Assembly (NCBI GenBank): GCA_029262065.1
Contig: JAJDAC010000002.1
Location: 124,001-188,000 of the forward strand
DNA length: 64,000 nucleotides
Direction: 5' to 3'
Source: Candidatus Krumholzibacteriota bacterium
GTDB taxonomy: Bacteria; Krumholzibacteriota; Krumholzibacteriia; JAJRXK01
Shown here: positions 55,545 through 64,000 of the stretch, in pieces
Position numbering within the stretch: the first letter of the stretch is position 1
Layout of the letters: each line of letters starts with the position of its first letter
Translations under genes and position numbers: made by a program
The notes under the pieces: generated by a model
The model's input: only the letters and a program-made list of their open reading frames with translations
What the model was told of the DNA's origin: nothing
The model's database searches: none

Positions 55545-56354
55545 CTAGTCGTCGCCCAACGTAGCCATCAGCGCCTCGACCGTGTCAACACCCTGCCTGC
55601 GCAAGAGGGTGACCATGCGCAGGAAGATGCGCGCGGTAGCCGTGGCGTCTTCGACCGCGCAATGATGCCGATCGAGAGGGACGTTGAGTGACTGCGCCAG
55701 CGCGTCGAGGCGATAGCTCTGCAGGTCGGGCAGATGCCGCCGGGCCAGGCGCACCGTACAAAGTCGGGGCACCGATTGCGGACGATAGCCCTCGGCCAGC
55801 AGATGCGATCGCAAGAAGGGATAATCGAACTCGACGTTGTGCGCCACGAAGGTGGCGTCAGCCATTCGATCCATGACGCGCGGGGCGATGTCCCCCATGC
55901 TCGGCGCCGATCGCACGGCATCCTCGTTGATCCCCGTCAGTCGCCGGATCCAGCTGGGAATGGGAATGCTGGGACGCACCAATGTCTCGAAACGATCGAC
56001 GATGGCCAGGCCCTCGATGCGAACCATCCCTACCTCGAGAATCTGGTCGACCGCGGGATTACTACCCGTGGCTTCGAGATCCACCACGGTGAAACAGGCA
56101 TCCTCGAGCGGGGTCGCCACCTCTACCGGCGAATGCAAACTCCACCGGCCCCGCGTGTGCTCTTCAAAACGCGCGTCGCGTTCCAATAGGGCCCGGATGA
56201 GCACGCTGGACACACCCGCGCTTCGACCCGGGCCACCCAACAGGTTTCGGGCGATCTCGGGAGAATCCACCGGCCGACGCACCTCGCGCAGGTAGGTGAT
56301 GACGCGGTCGCGTAGGGTTTCCAGATTTTGTTCGCGCAGAGGATGAAGATCCAA
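55545..56354 (-). CDS. DnaQ-type 3'-5' exonuclease with N-terminal winged-helix-like domain
   Basis: About 269 residues. The exonuclease domain has all three Exo motifs: 'FTVVDLEATGSNPAVDQILEV' (Asp-x-Glu), 'FVAHNVEFDYPFL' (Asn...Asp) and 'HHCAVEDATATARIF' (His...Asp). The first 90 residues ('LRDRVITYLREVRRPVDSPE', 'LLERDARFEEHTRGRWSLH') look like a winged helix, as in some exonuclease-helicase partners of unknown job. Not tied to a polymerase here. The start is uncertain: TTG at 56354 has GGAG six bases upstream, and the frame remains open to about 56465. Confidence 0.8.
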   Translation of the reverse strand: MDLHPLREQNLETLRDRVITYLREVRRPVDSPEIARNLLGGPGRSAGVSSVLIRALLERDARFEEHTRGRWSLHSPVEVATPLEDACFTVVDLEATGSNPAVDQILEVGMVRIEGLAIVDRFETLVRPSIPIPSWIRRLTGINEDAVRSAPSMGDIAPRVMDRMADATFVAHNVEFDYPFLRSHLLAEGYRPQSVPRLCTVRLARRHLPDLQSYRLDALAQSLNVPLDRHHCAVEDATATARIFLRMVTLLRRQGVDTVEALMATLGDD

Positions 56355-56516
56355 AACGATGCTCCGCAGTCCGATGTCGACTCGTACGATGTCGTTTGAG
56401 CGGGTTCGGCGGGGGAAACCGGGAAAGCGCCAGGGGGGAGCCGCCTTCCTCCACAATTGTAGCACAGACCGGAGATTCGACCGGGAATGCGGTCGGGAAC
56501 GCCCTGCGGCGGGGCT

Positions 56517-57341
56517 CTATTGGCCCGAGGCAATCCCCCGCGGTAGCCCAAGAGGCGCTTCGCGCCCGAATCCCACGCAACGCAGCCTGACCTCGGAATA
56601 GAGCGGAGGTTGCGGCGGGCGCGTCCGGCCCGACCCAGAGCCCTCCCAGCGCGACGACGTCTCGGCGGTGGTGACTACTTCCAGCAAACCCAGGATGGGG
56701 ACCGCCGGGCTGATGACGGCACGGGCGTCGAGTACGGTGGCATGGATCAACTCGCGTTGGCCCATGGGAGCACGCGTCTCCTGCGTCTCCGACAGGTGCA
56801 CGGCTTCGCGCGATATTGTCTGCGATCCCATCGACGAATCGGCCAGGGCGGCGCGCTCGATCAGGGGCTCGCGGAACGGGTCTTCGAGGTGTCGGCGGGC
56901 GAACCGACTGCGATGCGCGGAGTCCAGGGACTCCGGCGAAAACGTACGACCATCGTCGGTGGAGAAGAAGGCCAGGATGGCACCGAGCACCGGCCGGTCG
57001 GGGGCCAGGTTCGCGGGATCCAGATGCACGACGAAGCCCTTGCTGGTGCTGGACTGGCCCGCCTGCACCCATACCGTACCGTCGGCGTCAGCCGCCAACA
57101 CATCCACCCGCAACGTGTCCAACCATGACTGGCCTTCGGCGGCCTCGAAACGCTCGAGCTCGATCCAGCTTCCCGCCTCGAAATCCAACGGCAACAGTTG
57201 GCGCTGCCACCACGTGAACAGCTCGGTACCCTGGGCCTGACTAGAAGTGGCGCCAGCCATCAGCAGGCCCACCAGCAATGCACAGGCGACGACGAGCTTC
57301 GGAGTCGATGAAGTTGGATTGGTCATGTTCTTTATTCGCAT
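56517..57341 (-). CDS. Exported hypothetical protein
   Basis: About 274 residues from ATG 57341 (an ATG five codons later is possible). Signal peptide 'KLVVACALLVGLLMAGATSSQAQG'. Mature chain has 'WIELERFEAAEGQSWLDTLRVDVL', 'DGTVWVQAGQSSTSKGFVVHLD', then a low-complexity Pro/Arg end ('GSGRTRPPQPP'). Beta-rich and probably periplasmic; no family recognised. It follows the cytochrome gene 89 bases downstream and could share its transcript. Confidence 0.65.
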   Translation of the reverse strand: MRIKNMTNPTSSTPKLVVACALLVGLLMAGATSSQAQGTELFTWWQRQLLPLDFEAGSWIELERFEAAEGQSWLDTLRVDVLAADADGTVWVQAGQSSTSKGFVVHLDPANLAPDRPVLGAILAFFSTDDGRTFSPESLDSAHRSRFARRHLEDPFREPLIERAALADSSMGSQTISREAVHLSETQETRAPMGQRELIHATVLDARAVISPAVPILGLLEVVTTAETSSRWEGSGSGRTRPPQPPLYSEVRLRCVGFGREAPLGLPRGIASGQ

Positions 57342-57430
57342 AAGCGGACCATGGAGTTCCCAACCAAGAAGATCGCCCAGGAAGTACTCCCGGGCGATCA
57401 TTTTCTCGCCTCGAACCCGACCGTCTCGCC

Positions 57431-58816
57431 CTAGTGGGCGATCTTGGCCCAATAGGTCTCGTAGTCGAATTCAGGGCTGTTCTGCTGGTCGTGACACGTG
57501 ACGCAAGAGTCCTTGGCCTGAGCCAACCACGACCCTTCACGATCGTGCCCGGTGCCATAGCCATGGCAGGCTTCGCACTGCACGTTGGTCAGCGCTTCGC
57601 GACCGGCAACTTTCGCGTCGGCGACGCGATCGTAGCCATTCTTGTGGAAGAACCCTACCGAGTGACAGGCAACGCAGTCTTCGTTGTTGGTCTGCCCCTT
57701 GGTGGTCAACGAATCCCAGGCCCGCGCGTGAGCGCTCTGCAGGTAGTTCTGGAAGGTTTCCTTGTGACAGGTGCCGCAAGAGTGCGCACCGAGAAAACGA
57801 TGGTTGTCGTCGCCCTTGTCACGCGGATGGATGAACGAGGTACGGGTATCGCCCGCGGCCTTGTTCTCTTCTTCGAACTTCTTGACCTTGTCCACGAGCT
57901 CTTTGATCTCCGGGCTCTGCTTGTCGAGAGCGTGGATGGTGAGCGTGGCGTCTTCCACGATACCGGCCTTGCTGACCAGCATGTCCAACTGACCCACGTA
58001 CTTGCCCTGGTTGTTCGCGGCCACAAGGTGTACGTCGCCCACCTTGTTGATGCGGCGGTACTGACGGGGGTCGTGCGACTCGACGCAGATGTCGATACCC
58101 GAGCCCTCGCCCAATCCCAGCAACAGCTCGCGCGTATCCTTGCCACTGAGCTGAGCCAGCAGGACGATCACATCGGCCTTGCCGCGCAGCTCGGGCAGGT
58201 ACTTGTCCAGCGCATCACGCGGTGAATCCACCGTGAACTCGTCGGACGCGGCCGACATGGTCACGATCTTGTAGTCAGGGCCCAGAACCGAGATCACGCC
58301 CACGCGCAACCCTGCCTTCTCGGTGACCAGATACGGCGGAAACAGCAGCTCGCCGTTCGATCCGCGCACGTTCGCATTGGTCCAGCGGAAGTTGTGGGTC
58401 GAAGCCACCTCGCGCAGGTACTCGAGACCGTAGTTCAGGTCCCACTCACCCAGCCCGAAGATGTCGTACCCCAGCTTCGCGGTTTCCTTGATCAGGAACT
58501 CGGTCTGGTTCTTCTCGGCCTCGTTGCGCAGCCCAAACAGGCTACCGCCGTCGAGAACCAGGAGGTTTTCGTGTTCTTTCTTGATGTTGTCATAAAGGGC
58601 AGCCCGCCGGGCCAGCCCGCCAAGTGGCTTGGACTTTCAGCCACAGGGGGCGATTTTGCCCTGCACCGCGCTATGGAAGAGAAGGGTGAGATCCACCAGC
58701 TCCTCTGCCTCGCTCGATGGTCCGCTCGCCGTGATCGTGCCAATGGCTACAACCAGGGCCACGAGGAGTGAGCCGAAGCGACGATGGAGGCTTCGGCGGC
58801 CTTCTGCGTGGATCAT
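57431..58816 (-). CDS. Metallophosphatase-tetraheme cytochrome c, probable selenoprotein (Sec60 = UGA)
   Basis: About 461 residues counting one UGA. ATG at 58814-58816; signal peptide 'FGSLLVALVVAIGTITASG'; then 'VDLTLLFHSAVQGKIAPCG', an in-frame TGA at 58637-58639 (residue 60), and 'KSKPLGGLARRAALYDNIKK'. Homologues of the 5'-nucleotidase/UshA-like metallophosphatase family with C-terminal cytochrome carry 'EPCGC' followed by 'GGLARRA' at this point, so the TGA replaces the second Cys. The next 200 residues are the metallophosphatase fold ('LVLDGGSLFGLRNEAEK', 'LGYDIFGLGEWDLNYG', 'DVIVLLAQLSGKDTREL', 'VHLVAANNQGKYVG'). Four heme sites close the protein: CGTCH, CVACH, CEACH, CVTCH. Likely exported and involved in electron transfer or sulfur/redox chemistry in the periplasm. 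An alternative is a nonsense change; see findings. Confidence 0.8.
58608..58632 (-). promoter_or_regulatory. Candidate SECIS hairpin after the in-frame UGA
   Basis: On the minus strand, starting four bases after the UGA: CC, bulged A, AGCC, loop of eight bases with UUGG, then GGCU and GG. A second choice is CGGG-CUGG-CCCG at 58619-58608, 17 bases after the UGA. Both have a GG in the loop at roughly the distance bacterial SECIS elements use; neither is confirmed. Confidence 0.35.
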
Positions 58817-59164
58817 GATCTGGGTTTTCCTAGTCTGGAGTCGGTGGGTTCGCTGGACGCGACCCATCTGCATGCGAGTTCGCTAAGCAAACGTAGCACC
58901 GTACCGGGTCGTCAGGCAACGACCGAAGACCTTAGTGCGCATAACCTTACGTGGTTTTTACAGCGGCGCTGGGACTCGGCCGGTGCGAGGCGATGATTTT
59001 CGCCCAGCGCCGCGGGGAGGGGGCGGGCGAGGGCGGAGGAGCCATACGAGGGCGATTCAGGCCCCCCCAAAGCCCCCCAAACCGCAAGAACGTGGCTGCG
59101 GACTCCCGTCCATGGAAGCCCGCAGCCGCCGGCGATCGCCGTCTTCTCCACAATGGCGAGAAGA
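58817..59164. other. Gene-free region with long inverted repeat upstream of the cytochrome gene
   Basis: About 350 bases between HU and the cytochrome gene. It has a perfect eleven-base inverted repeat, GCGGCGCTGGG at 58964-58974 with CCCAGCGCCGC at 59004-59014, about 150 bases before the cytochrome start. Another eight-base stem at 59094-59127, 38 bases past the HU stop and followed by ACGTTCTTG on the minus strand, may end the HU transcript. Confidence 0.45.
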
Positions 59165-59461
59165 CTACTTCTTGTTGACGCGGTCTTTGAGCGAGCGACC
59201 CGCCGAAAAGGCAGGTACGCGCGCCGCTGGGATGTTGATGACCTCACCCGTTTGCGGATTGCGCCCTTTGCGCTTCTTCCGCTTGCGCGGCTCGAAGGTT
59301 CCGAACCCCGTGATCTGGACCTTGCGACCACGGGCTAGCTCCTGCGCGATGATCCCGTGCTTGGGATCGGTATCGAAGATCGTGTTGACCACGTCTCGTG
59401 CCTCACGCATGGAGAGCTCGTTCTTCTTCGCCAGCTTCTCCGTAAGTTCCGTCTTGTTCAT
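59165..59461 (-). CDS. hup: HU-family DNA-binding protein
   Basis: 98 residues, the usual HU size. 'MNKTELTEKLAKKNELSMREA' helical base, then the beta arm with 'KVQITGFGTFEPRKRKKRKGRNPQTGEVINIPAARVPAFSAGR', the nucleoid-protein signature (the arm ends in the conserved Pro). Bends and compacts DNA. ATG at 59459-59461 with AAAGGGGG upstream. Confidence 0.97.
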   Translation of the reverse strand: MNKTELTEKLAKKNELSMREARDVVNTIFDTDPKHGIIAQELARGRKVQITGFGTFEPRKRKKRKGRNPQTGEVINIPAARVPAFSAGRSLKDRVNKK

Positions 59462-59557
59462 GACGGCACCCCCTTTCTTGTTCTCGCGGTTTACGTTTTC
59501 CGAAGGGGGGTGTCAACAGGAATTCCCAGATATGACGGGAAGAAATCGACACCTGGC

Positions 59558-62500
59558 TCAGAAATTCGAGAGCCGTCGGAGGGCGTCGCCGGTGTCGCGG
59601 TTGCCGCGCGTCACCTCGAGATCGGGGATGTCACTCAGGTACAGCCGGAAGCCGAAGTCAGACCCGTCGCCCGAAACGATGCGCGAAAACGATAGGGTCC
59701 AATGGTGGAGCTTGCGAGACAGTTCGTAGGTTTGGTTCACGAACTCGCCTCGTTCCGCGTCAAACCCCGCGTTGTAGGACAACGACCATTCTCCGGGCAG
59801 TCGAATTCCGGTGCGCGTAGTCACCGTGGCCGTGGTGTTCGTGGCACCGCTGATCTGGTTCTTGGTCTGCCGCAACGATGCGGTCAAACGAAAGGTCCAC
59901 GGGATTGCATTCTGGTCGGTCCCGTTCTCCAACCAACGCTCGGCGTCGCGTCGCTGGCTGAGTTCGTAGTTGCTTTCTTCCTGGTCGAGCAACGCATCAT
60001 CCGATTTCGTGGTGTCAGCCGCCGCCGTGGGAAACCGATCGATGATGGCGTTCTTCGCCTGCTTCTTCTGACGAAGCGAACCGCCGAGGTCGGCGGTGCC
60101 CTGCAGATTCAAACCGGTGTCGATCGAGCTGCTGAGAATATCGAACGTGTACGGATCGATCGACTGGCTCATCCCCAGGTCGATCGCGCGCGTCACTCCC
60201 GGACGCACGGTGACGCGACTGTTGATGGTCGCCCAACGTCGATCGGGTTGCGCATCGGGGTCGTAGCTACTGGAAAGCGACCAAGTAAGAATCTGGTTGA
60301 GTTTGCGCGTCGCCTCTTCCTTGGGAACCTCAGGCGCTTCTTCCACGCTACCGGCCCGGGTAGGATCGCTCGCGCTACGAGACGAAGCACGGGCGGCACC
60401 CTCCTGGCCCGTGACCTTCAGCGACAACTCGTTGGTCAGGTTGAACGAGAAGTTCTGCGAGCTCTGCTGTTTGTCGCCCAACTGTGGGCTCCAATTGTGG
60501 CTCATGTTCCACGACAGCTTGTGCTTGATACCTCGCACCGGGCCCAACCGGGTGCCGAAGATGCCGTACAGATCGGTGCGCAGACCGTTGCTGAACGAGA
60601 GGCGGGGCGTGAACTCGTTGTCGAGTTCACGAACGGTCCCGTCGGGTACCGCGACCGTGTCTTCGACACGCCCCAGGGGGTTGAAGATGTCCTGGGCCAC
60701 GAACAGGTCCTCTTCGAACTCACGGTAGCGCCATGCTTCGGAGAAGCTCGCGCTACTGGTGAGCACGAACGGCCCAACCCGACTTCGCGGCGCGTAGCTC
60801 AGGCCAAACGACCCGCTGAAGGACGCCTCGTCTTCGACGCTCTCCTCCTTCAATTCACGGTCATAACTCCCGCTGTACCGTTGTGAGAACTGAATATCGC
60901 GCAACACGTTGGCAAACGCATTGCCGTCGCGCCCCGACGGCAATGCGCCAAGCAAGGGCCGTGACTTGAAGCTCAGGGTGAATCGAGGCGCCGTCTGCCG
61001 ATACAGCGTGTTGTTCGTACCCACCCGGTCGTCATCTTCGGCGTTGACGAACTGATCGCGCGAGGCGGACATGCTGAGCCGCGCACCATTGTCGAAGCTG
61101 CGGCTGATCGAGACGTCGCTCCCCAACTGGGCGGGAAGAAAGTCGTTGGTGATGGTGCTACCAATGCGCCGCGTGAGATTGGAAGAACTCAGATTGACGG
61201 CCGCGCTTCCGCTCCAGACTTCCCACAGCTCCGGCTGCCGATGGCTGGCCTCGAATTCCCACTCGTCACCCTCGAGCGATTCGCTGAAGCGACGCAGGTA
61301 ATCGAACCTCATGCGCCCGCTTACGCCGTACCGCACGTTGTAGTTGTTCTCCACGGTGAATCCGGCGTCGTTGCGCTCGTTGTAGTCCATCTCGAACTTG
61401 AAATCGGTGTACTCGTTGGTGGCCCAGTAGAAGCCCAGATCGCGGATATAACGCCCTTCCCGGCTACTTACGCCCAGATTCAGATTGGGAAACAAGATGC
61501 CCGATCGGCGGCCCGACTTCAGCGACTTGTAGTAGAACGGTAGGGTCATCAGGGGAATGTCACTGAGCTTGAACGTGACCTGTCGCGCCACGACGCTCTC
61601 CCCCACCTTCAACTTCATCTTCTTGGCCGCGAAGTGGTAATGCGGTTCGGCCAGGTCGCACGAAGTGTACGTACCGTTTTTTACGAGTAGGGTCTTCTGG
61701 TCGATCCTTCGTATCAGATCGCCCGAATAGTAACCGTCGTCGAAGCGCGTAACGCCATGACGCACGGCCCCGGTCTGGTGGTTGAACAGGTACCCCATGC
61801 GTTCGCCCACCAACTCGCTGCCTTCGTCGGCAAGATAGGGGTTCCCCTCGGCCACCATCTCCTGGGTGTTGGTATCCACCTGCACGCGGTCGGCATTCAA
61901 CTTTAGGGTACCCTGCCCGACCTGAGCGGCTCCTTTGACCTCGATGGTGCCCTTCTGCACGCGAAACTTCGTGCTATTTCCCGCGTAGGTGACGCGCTCG
62001 GCCGACGTGGCGAAGTCCACCAGCTTCGGCGCCGGCGGCAGCGGATCGGCGGCGATCACAGTCAATGTATCCGCACGCGCGGCCAGATCCTCCACCTGCG
62101 TGGAGTCGATCCCACCTACCGAGACCAACGCCGAGTCGGGCACCACCGGTGGCACCACCAACGAATCCACGACCGCGGAGTCGGACGCCGCGATCTGCTG
62201 CTCGAGGATGCGACGCTCGACGAAGCTGTATGATCCATCAACGTTGCCATCGACCTGGACGATGTCGACCACGCCATCCTTGAAACGGATATCGATGGCG
62301 TCGCCCTTCACCTCGTTCACCGAGATGGATTGCGACTGATCGTCGGGCAGGTAGGTGCTCGACGCGCGACCGCGCACCCAGGTGCGAACGATCTCACCGG
62401 CGTCGACGTACACCGCCAGCGTGTCACCGGTCAGTACGTTGGCCAACGGAATCGACGAGAACTGTTGGGCGAGCGTGTCGGGCGATGCGTCGACCAGACG

Positions 62501-63445
62501 ACTGTCGCCGAACACGTCGATCTGCCGCAGTTTCTGATTCTCGTAGGTGAACCGGATCTCGTCACCGGTAAGCACCGTGGCTTCCCGATCCACGCGCGGC
62601 GAGCCCTTGAGTATCAGGAGGTCTTCACCCAGGAACGTCATGGTGTCGGCGGTGGCGTTCGTGGTGCCCTGCCGGAACTTCACGTTCCCAATGGCCTGGC
62701 TCCATTGGCCGGCCTGATCGAAAGCCATGGTGACACTCTCCACGACCATCTCTTCGCGGCTGCGTCGACGCGACGTCAGCCGGGGCAACGAGTCCACCCT
62801 GGCGATGCCGGTGGCCCGATTGAGTTGGCCGTGCTCGCCAACGATGACGGTCGACGCCGCCTGGTCGACCACGCGCACCGAACCGAACGCCTCGAGAAAC
62901 TCAGCGGCGCGGTCGTAGACCAGCGAGTCACCGCTGACCACGAACTCTCCGTCGATCAACCGGGCGTTTCCGACCAACGCCAACCAGTCGTCGCGCTTGC
63001 GATAGTAGGCGCGGTCGGAGGTGCCGATGGTGCCGTCGTCCATTTCCAGTCGAACATTGCCGGTGGCCACGCCGCTCTCAGAGGTTTGGCGGACCCGAAG
63101 CCGGTCGCTCCACAGTTTGAGCGAGTCGGTGACCACGTACACGTCGCCGATGAGCAGGAATTCCCCGGTGGTTTCGTAGATGCGACCCTCGATCGAGGTG
63201 GCCTCGAGATCGTCGCCCCACACGCGCACGGGCCCCGCCAGATAGCCCACGTAGGTGCCGTCGGGTTCCTGCACGAATCGGTATCCACCGGGCGAGTCGT
63301 GGCGGTAGCCACCGGCGCCCGACCCGGGCGCGGTTTCCTGGGCCGTGACCGTCGAGCTCGACGACAGCGCGGCAACCACCACCAGCACGGCACCCAGCAC
63401 CGCGCACAGGCGCCGAACAAGACGATGAAATGGGTCAAAGGACAT
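59558..63445 (-). CDS. lptD: LptD-like LPS-assembly outer membrane protein (very large)
   Basis: About 1295 residues. ATG at 63443-63445 with AGGA five bases upstream; the frame is open further upstream but overlaps the ROK gene and lacks coding character. Signal peptide 'RRLCAVLGAVLVVVAALSSSS'. The first 550 residues are repeated OstA/LptA-like beta-jellyroll strands ('GEFLLIGDVYVVTDSLKLWSDRL', 'EEFVVSGDSLVYDRAAEFLEA'-type, 'MTFLGEDLLILKGSPRVDREAT', 'LKLNADRVQVDTNTQEMVAEGNPYL'), then the LptD barrel ('GILFPNLNLGVSSREGRYIRDLGFYW', 'YTDFKFEMDYNERNDAGFT', 'LSFSRIVSGDGSDFGFRLYLSD'). It inserts LPS into the outer membrane with LptE, not seen here. Longer than proteobacterial LptD (about 780) because of extra N-terminal jellyroll repeats. 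Confidence 0.9.
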   Translation of the reverse strand: MSFDPFHRLVRRLCAVLGAVLVVVAALSSSSTVTAQETAPGSGAGGYRHDSPGGYRFVQEPDGTYVGYLAGPVRVWGDDLEATSIEGRIYETTGEFLLIGDVYVVTDSLKLWSDRLRVRQTSESGVATGNVRLEMDDGTIGTSDRAYYRKRDDWLALVGNARLIDGEFVVSGDSLVYDRAAEFLEAFGSVRVVDQAASTVIVGEHGQLNRATGIARVDSLPRLTSRRRSREEMVVESVTMAFDQAGQWSQAIGNVKFRQGTTNATADTMTFLGEDLLILKGSPRVDREATVLTGDEIRFTYENQKLRQIDVFGDSRLVDASPDTLAQQFSSIPLANVLTGDTLAVYVDAGEIVRTWVRGRASSTYLPDDQSQSISVNEVKGDAIDIRFKDGVVDIVQVDGNVDGSYSFVERRILEQQIAASDSAVVDSLVVPPVVPDSALVSVGGIDSTQVEDLAARADTLTVIAADPLPPAPKLVDFATSAERVTYAGNSTKFRVQKGTIEVKGAAQVGQGTLKLNADRVQVDTNTQEMVAEGNPYLADEGSELVGERMGYLFNHQTGAVRHGVTRFDDGYYSGDLIRRIDQKTLLVKNGTYTSCDLAEPHYHFAAKKMKLKVGESVVARQVTFKLSDIPLMTLPFYYKSLKSGRRSGILFPNLNLGVSSREGRYIRDLGFYWATNEYTDFKFEMDYNERNDAGFTVENNYNVRYGVSGRMRFDYLRRFSESLEGDEWEFEASHRQPELWEVWSGSAAVNLSSSNLTRRIGSTITNDFLPAQLGSDVSISRSFDNGARLSMSASRDQFVNAEDDDRVGTNNTLYRQTAPRFTLSFKSRPLLGALPSGRDGNAFANVLRDIQFSQRYSGSYDRELKEESVEDEASFSGSFGLSYAPRSRVGPFVLTSSASFSEAWRYREFEEDLFVAQDIFNPLGRVEDTVAVPDGTVRELDNEFTPRLSFSNGLRTDLYGIFGTRLGPVRGIKHKLSWNMSHNWSPQLGDKQQSSQNFSFNLTNELSLKVTGQEGAARASSRSASDPTRAGSVEEAPEVPKEEATRKLNQILTWSLSSSYDPDAQPDRRWATINSRVTVRPGVTRAIDLGMSQSIDPYTFDILSSSIDTGLNLQGTADLGGSLRQKKQAKNAIIDRFPTAAADTTKSDDALLDQEESNYELSQRRDAERWLENGTDQNAIPWTFRLTASLRQTKNQISGATNTTATVTTRTGIRLPGEWSLSYNAGFDAERGEFVNQTYELSRKLHHWTLSFSRIVSGDGSDFGFRLYLSDIPDLEVTRGNRDTGDALRRLSNF

Positions 63446-63519
63446 GCAGGTCCTAGCGGCCTCGGACCAGGGGCAACGCGGGAAGCTCCCCATATTGATG
63501 AAGGGAAAGCGTCCCGCCG

Positions 63520-64000
63520 TCAAGCGATCGGACGGATCCCCGCTCCGTTGAAGGAGTCGAGAGCCAGCACGGCGGCCCCCTTGGCCGCTCCCTCCGAGCC
63601 CAGTTCGGCCAGAACCAAGCGCATCGCGGCCACCGGTCCGGGCATGCCACGTTCGTGCAGGGTGGCCCGTGCGGCGTCGAGCAGCGGCTCGCCCAGCCCG
63701 GCGACACCACCGCCAAGGACCACTACCTCGGGATTGAACATGTGCACCACGTTGACGCAGGCCAACCCCAGCCAGTAGCCCGACTCGGCCACAACCTCGA
63801 GGGCCAGCGCGTCGCCGTCGTGCGCGGCGGCACTGATGACCCGCGGCGACATGGCGCCGGCTTGCTCCAGGTGGTGACTCAGCCGCGAGGGGCCCGTCAC
63901 CTGGGCCAACCGCTCCGACGCCCGGCGCGAGATGGCCTGCGCGCTCAGATAGGCCTCGACGTGACCACGATCGCCGCAGGGACACGGCGGTCCCTCGGGA
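63520..64000 (-). CDS. ROK-family sugar kinase, N-terminal part outside window
   Basis: The frame is open to the window edge, so only the C-terminal 160 residues are present. They contain the ROK zinc motif 'CPCGDRGHVEAYLSA' (third Cys replaced by His) and the 'NPEVVVLGGGVAGLGEPLLDA' strand-helix typical of glucokinase/N-acetylmannosamine-kinase ROK proteins. Sugar specificity cannot be judged without the N-terminus. Its stop lies 74 bases before the LptD start on the same strand. Confidence 0.85.
   Translation of the reverse strand, partial: PEGPPCPCGDRGHVEAYLSAQAISRRASERLAQVTGPSRLSHHLEQAGAMSPRVISAAAHDGDALALEVVAESGYWLGLACVNVVHMFNPEVVVLGGGVAGLGEPLLDAARATLHERGMPGPVAAMRLVLAELGSEGAAKGAAVLALDSFNGAGIRPIA

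Follow-up and report, generated by a model that had tools for sequence, protein, structure and literature searches.

Results

The locus and its product

The window, that is, the whole stretch of 64,000 nucleotides analysed here, carries towards its end a gene interrupted by an in-frame TGA, in a neighbourhood encoding a ROK kinase, LptD, an HU-type protein, the putative selenoprotein, an unknown protein and an exonuclease (Table 1). Translation from the ATG at 58816 to the TAG stop at 57433-57431 confirmed the statement of a preliminary description of this DNA that the frame is broken only by the TGA, at 58639-58637. The read-through product has the sequence ...QGKIAPCG-U-KSKPLGGLARRAALYDN..., in which APCG-TGA corresponds to residues 56-60, and four CXXCH motifs are located at residues 347-351, 381-385, 414-418 and 438-442. 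The four hemes foreseen downstream of the TGA were thus found as motifs, which are moreover conserved in the orthologues, and Pfam Cytochrome_C554 (PF13435) matched residues 347-419.

Table 1. Features of the selenoprotein locus (window positions).
Feature	Positions	Strand	Evidence
Gene, very probably of a selenoprotein: UshA-like metallophosphatase-fold and tetraheme c-type cytochrome fusion, 461 aa	57431..58816	-	Translation, NF041198, orthologues
UGA codon, very probably read as Sec60	58637..58639	-	TGA/Cys column in homologues and Sec machinery
Predicted SECIS hairpin, stem 58617-58609 with 58605-58597, loop GGC 58608-58606	58597..58617	-	Covariation over 45 sequences, stem not retained in Cys homologues; folding energy alone not significant
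Putative N-terminal signal peptide region, residues 1-36	58709..58816	-	Hydrophobic helix 16-25, low model confidence; expected for a c-type cytochrome
Metallophosphatase/5'-nucleotidase-fold domain, residues 40-320, degenerate metal-ligand motifs	57857..58699	-	Foldseek, motif table
Tetraheme cytochrome c554-like domain, residues 339-461	57434..57802	-	Pfam PF13435, conservation
Upstream gene, HU-type DNA-binding protein	59165..59461	-	Pfam PF00216, synteny

The order LptD, HU, selenoprotein, unknown protein and exonuclease (window 55545-63985, minus strand) is broadly kept across the class. The gene directly downstream (window 56517-57341, minus strand) encodes a protein with a hydrophobic N terminus and no Pfam match, and an uncharacterised gene of about 300 aa also lies downstream in some relatives. 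The conserved neighbours (LptD, HU and exonuclease) gave no functional or substrate hint, and the HU gene, although a conserved neighbour, is probably not functionally linked.

Against the NCBIfam model NF041198, 'UshA-like (seleno)protein' (UshA_like_PCGU), the product scored 280.9 bits with a curated cut-off of 275, in a match that spans the TGA and includes the PCGU/PCGC motif of the family; the read-through frame is far above chance. The heme domain alone gave 100.3 bits to model positions 398-519, so that the cytochrome is part of the model, and NF041198 was matched by all 39 of the aligned homologues.

Conservation of the TGA codon

Orthologues were searched in a set of 80 genomes of the phylum, most of which have one with exactly one in-frame TGA. 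Residue 60 was checked directly, and TGA is present there in 46 loci. These come from 45 genomes that belong, like that of the window, to the class Ca. Krumholzibacteriia; all have four CXXCH motifs, and their identity ranges from about 30 to 59%. Among family members the residue-60 column otherwise holds only Cys (TGT or TGC), namely in three tetraheme homologues (L053, L054 and L055) and two heme-less relatives (L020, from the same genome as the window, and L056), and in the aligned homologues residue 60 is conserved along with the four CXXCH motifs. The homologue alignment proposed in the preliminary description has therefore been made, and the TGA does fall on a conserved Cys of the family and recurs in dozens of genomes. 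In plasmid records only matches below 60% identity were found, none covering 80% of the query, and those with an annotation are labelled as ordinary nucleotidases.

The Cys-Gly-Sec pair noted earlier is present in the window protein (PCG-U) but is not general. Residue 60 is invariably Sec or Cys, whereas nine aligned members (L062, L063, L065, L066 and L068-L072, from family f4 of the class) have Ala, Gly or Ser in place of Cys58 and retain both TGA and hairpin. An obligatory Cys58-Sec60 bond can therefore not be a general property of these proteins. The existence of such a PAGU-type clade also means that not every member fits the CxU motif as catalogued. The heme-less paralogue L020 (C27:32827-33729) has DCGC at this site, is 42% identical and is without the hairpin.

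Selenocysteine machinery

The genome that contains the window (5.77 Mb, 95.6% complete) encodes selA (467.8 bits), selB (354.1 bits) and selD (336.2 bits), all above the curated cut-offs, as well as a tRNA-Sec (71.6 bits) which was confirmed by ARAGORN with the anticodon tca, so that every component proposed for the check is present in the assembly. No internal TGA occurs in the selA and selB frames. The selD gene (minus-strand ORF 1399-2538 of locus L018) has an in-frame TGA of its own in a GUAAK context, the known UxxK, and appears to encode a selenoprotein itself. SelB scored above its cut-off in 73 of the 80 genomes; since nearly all of them have it, its presence did not tell genomes with the Sec form from those with the Cys form.

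A candidate SECIS hairpin

A hairpin is predicted to start about 20 nt past the TGA, with a GG[A/C] loop beginning 28 nt past the UGA; this covarying stem soon after the UGA, with a G opening the apical loop, has the form looked for in a SECIS element. The stem joins aligned columns 29-37 with 41-49, where 88.6% of cells pair over 44 distinct sequences, and in the window eight of the nine pairs are formed. Double changes numbered 32 against a shuffled mean of 11.8, and the covariation score was 0.313 against a shuffled mean of 0.167, with none of 500 shuffles as high, in a control that ignores relatedness and for a stem partly formed by two conserved Arg codons. When the partner was slid by one column the score fell to 0.141 or less, and RNAalifold independently chose the inner six stem pairs. 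When each peptide was recoded synonymously, nearly every Sec sequence exceeded the recoding mean in number of pairs and lay below it in energy. In the five homologues with Cys, between 4 and 7 of the 9 pairs are formed and the energy is near or above the recoding mean, one of them (L055) being truncated and off register in the hairpin region. The stem is absent from one sequence (L037), and for the window hairpin folded by itself the stability does not exceed that of dinucleotide shuffles (z -0.4 to -0.6).

Metal-ligand motifs and heme ligands

The AlphaFold model of the product (mean pLDDT 86.9) matched 5'-nucleotidases in Foldseek with E about 1e-19. The dimetal ligands of the active UshA/SoxB type (D-x-H, GD, GNHE, H and GHxH) are not found in the selenoprotein, which has SAVQG, DGGS, GEWD, LAQ (LLAQ) and SHDP at these sites, compared with NDIHG, DAGD, GNHE, VVH and GGHTH in L022, a nucleotidase encoded by the same genome whose motifs are intact and which served as a control. 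Among the 39 homologues only two keep the motif-I His and not one has the Asn-His of GNHE. The motif-I Asp is kept in 30, the GD Asp in 34 and two His in 31 and 32; the loss of ligands is most severe in the window protein and its nearest kin. With such degenerate motifs a classical two-metal phosphatase site is unlikely in the selenoprotein and, as most of the metal ligands are gone, hydrolysis of phosphate esters has most likely been lost.

Besides those of the CXXCH motifs, only three His (363, 424 and 461) are conserved over the 39 aligned homologues, hence one heme is possibly without a distal His. Cytochrome c554 likewise has one heme lacking a distal His.

Discussion

The gene in this Krumholzibacteriota genome is very probably a true selenoprotein gene and a member of the known NF041198 family, and the proposal that its TGA encodes selenocysteine is supported by the Cys/TGA column, the Sec machinery and the covarying hairpin. 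UshA-like COG0737 selenoproteins with a CxU motif were tabulated in 2008 with 76 sequences (PMC2398784), they also appear in another paper (PMC9312934), and a 2026 review of prokaryotic selenoproteins lists the family with NF041198 and regards the functions of such predicted families as largely uncharacterised (PMC13188914). The earlier remark that no selenoprotein of this family had been described was thus mistaken, and the gene does not represent a new selenoprotein family. Given that the NF041198 model includes the cytochrome and that CxU members had been tabulated, both the family and the heme fusion were already known. In the literature on Krumholzibacteriota and selenoproteins no paper was found, nor any published analysis of the UshA-like family in the phylum.

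Where a frame is intact but for one TGA, the codon can always have arisen through faulty sequencing or through nonsense mutation of a gene in decay. Here, however, the same TGA recurs in the orthologues from 45 genomes, even at about 30% identity, which rules out both a sequencing error and a nonsense mutation private to one genome, and the domain downstream of it is fully conserved; the comparative data already refute this explanation, and its probability is negligible. Nor can a read-through frame alone name the residue inserted, and a changed genetic code could in principle supply another amino acid such as Trp. Against such a code stand the alternative in the column, which is always Cys, the selA and selB frames free of internal TGA, and the complete Sec system, leaving it just as improbable. 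Termination at the TGA, with a shorter protein made from a downstream start, has a concrete candidate in the 325-aa ORF from the GTG at 58408. That protein would be without the signal peptide needed by a c-type cytochrome and without part of the conserved domain, and both TGA and hairpin are retained across the class; this too is very improbable, if marginally less so.

As to its role, the selenoprotein may still be a metallophosphatase or SoxB-like hydrolase, with Sec acting as nucleophile or binding a metal and the hemes having a side function; models of SoxB and of nucleotidases match it weakly, and the positions of Asp50, Asp92, His222 and His248 are kept in most orthologues. In the selenoprotein itself, however, three of these positions have changed, to Ala (50), Ser (92) and Gln (222), and the family as a whole has lost GNHE, which makes a hydrolase rather unlikely. 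The balance is slightly in favour of a redox role, in which a periplasmic protein dependent on Sec would exchange electrons with its c554-type tetraheme domain. It is proposed, more tentatively, that a metallophosphoesterase fold which lost its metal site may have become a redox enzyme based on Sec and connected to a tetraheme chain; in one clade Sec would then suffice without a vicinal Cys.

During translation, SelB and Sec-tRNA-Sec very probably decode the UGA as Sec, directed by the predicted hairpin just downstream within the coding sequence. The product would then be exported and the four hemes attached at the CXXCH motifs. Judging from the fold and the alignment, Sec60 would lie in the loop that follows the first strand, next to what was once the two-metal pocket. 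There it may react with a substrate, possibly a species of sulfur, selenium or a metal, and may exchange electrons with the heme chain.

The 46 verified Sec forms extend a predicted selenoprotein family over a whole, mostly uncultured bacterial class. Together with the natural Cys variants and the natural loss of the neighbouring Cys, they provide a good comparative set for studying the function of Sec in a fold that, in related proteins, serves the hydrolysis of phosphate esters.

With NF041198 the protein shares its whole architecture, that is, the UshA-like domain, PCG-U/C near the N terminus and the C-terminal multiheme region, although its score is just above the cut-off, its metal ligands are more degenerate than in most relatives, and some relatives in the same class carry PAGU instead. 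The COG and the CxU motif are common to it and to the COG0737 selenoproteins, which the papers cited above list from sequence. The match to NF049981, UshA-like (seleno)protein family 2, is weak and confined to residues 43-128 (45 bits against a cut-off of 140), that family having a CxxU motif and a model of 262 positions. SoxB and the UshA/CpdB metallophosphatases have the 5'-nucleotidase fold in common with the selenoprotein, but the sequence match is partial and the selenoprotein lacks their metal motifs D-x-H, GD and GNHE. Cytochrome c554 (Nitrosomonas CycA) resembles the heme domain, which is matched by PF13435 and NF043010 and likewise has four CXXCH motifs, but here this domain is fused to another one and falls far below the CycA cut-off.
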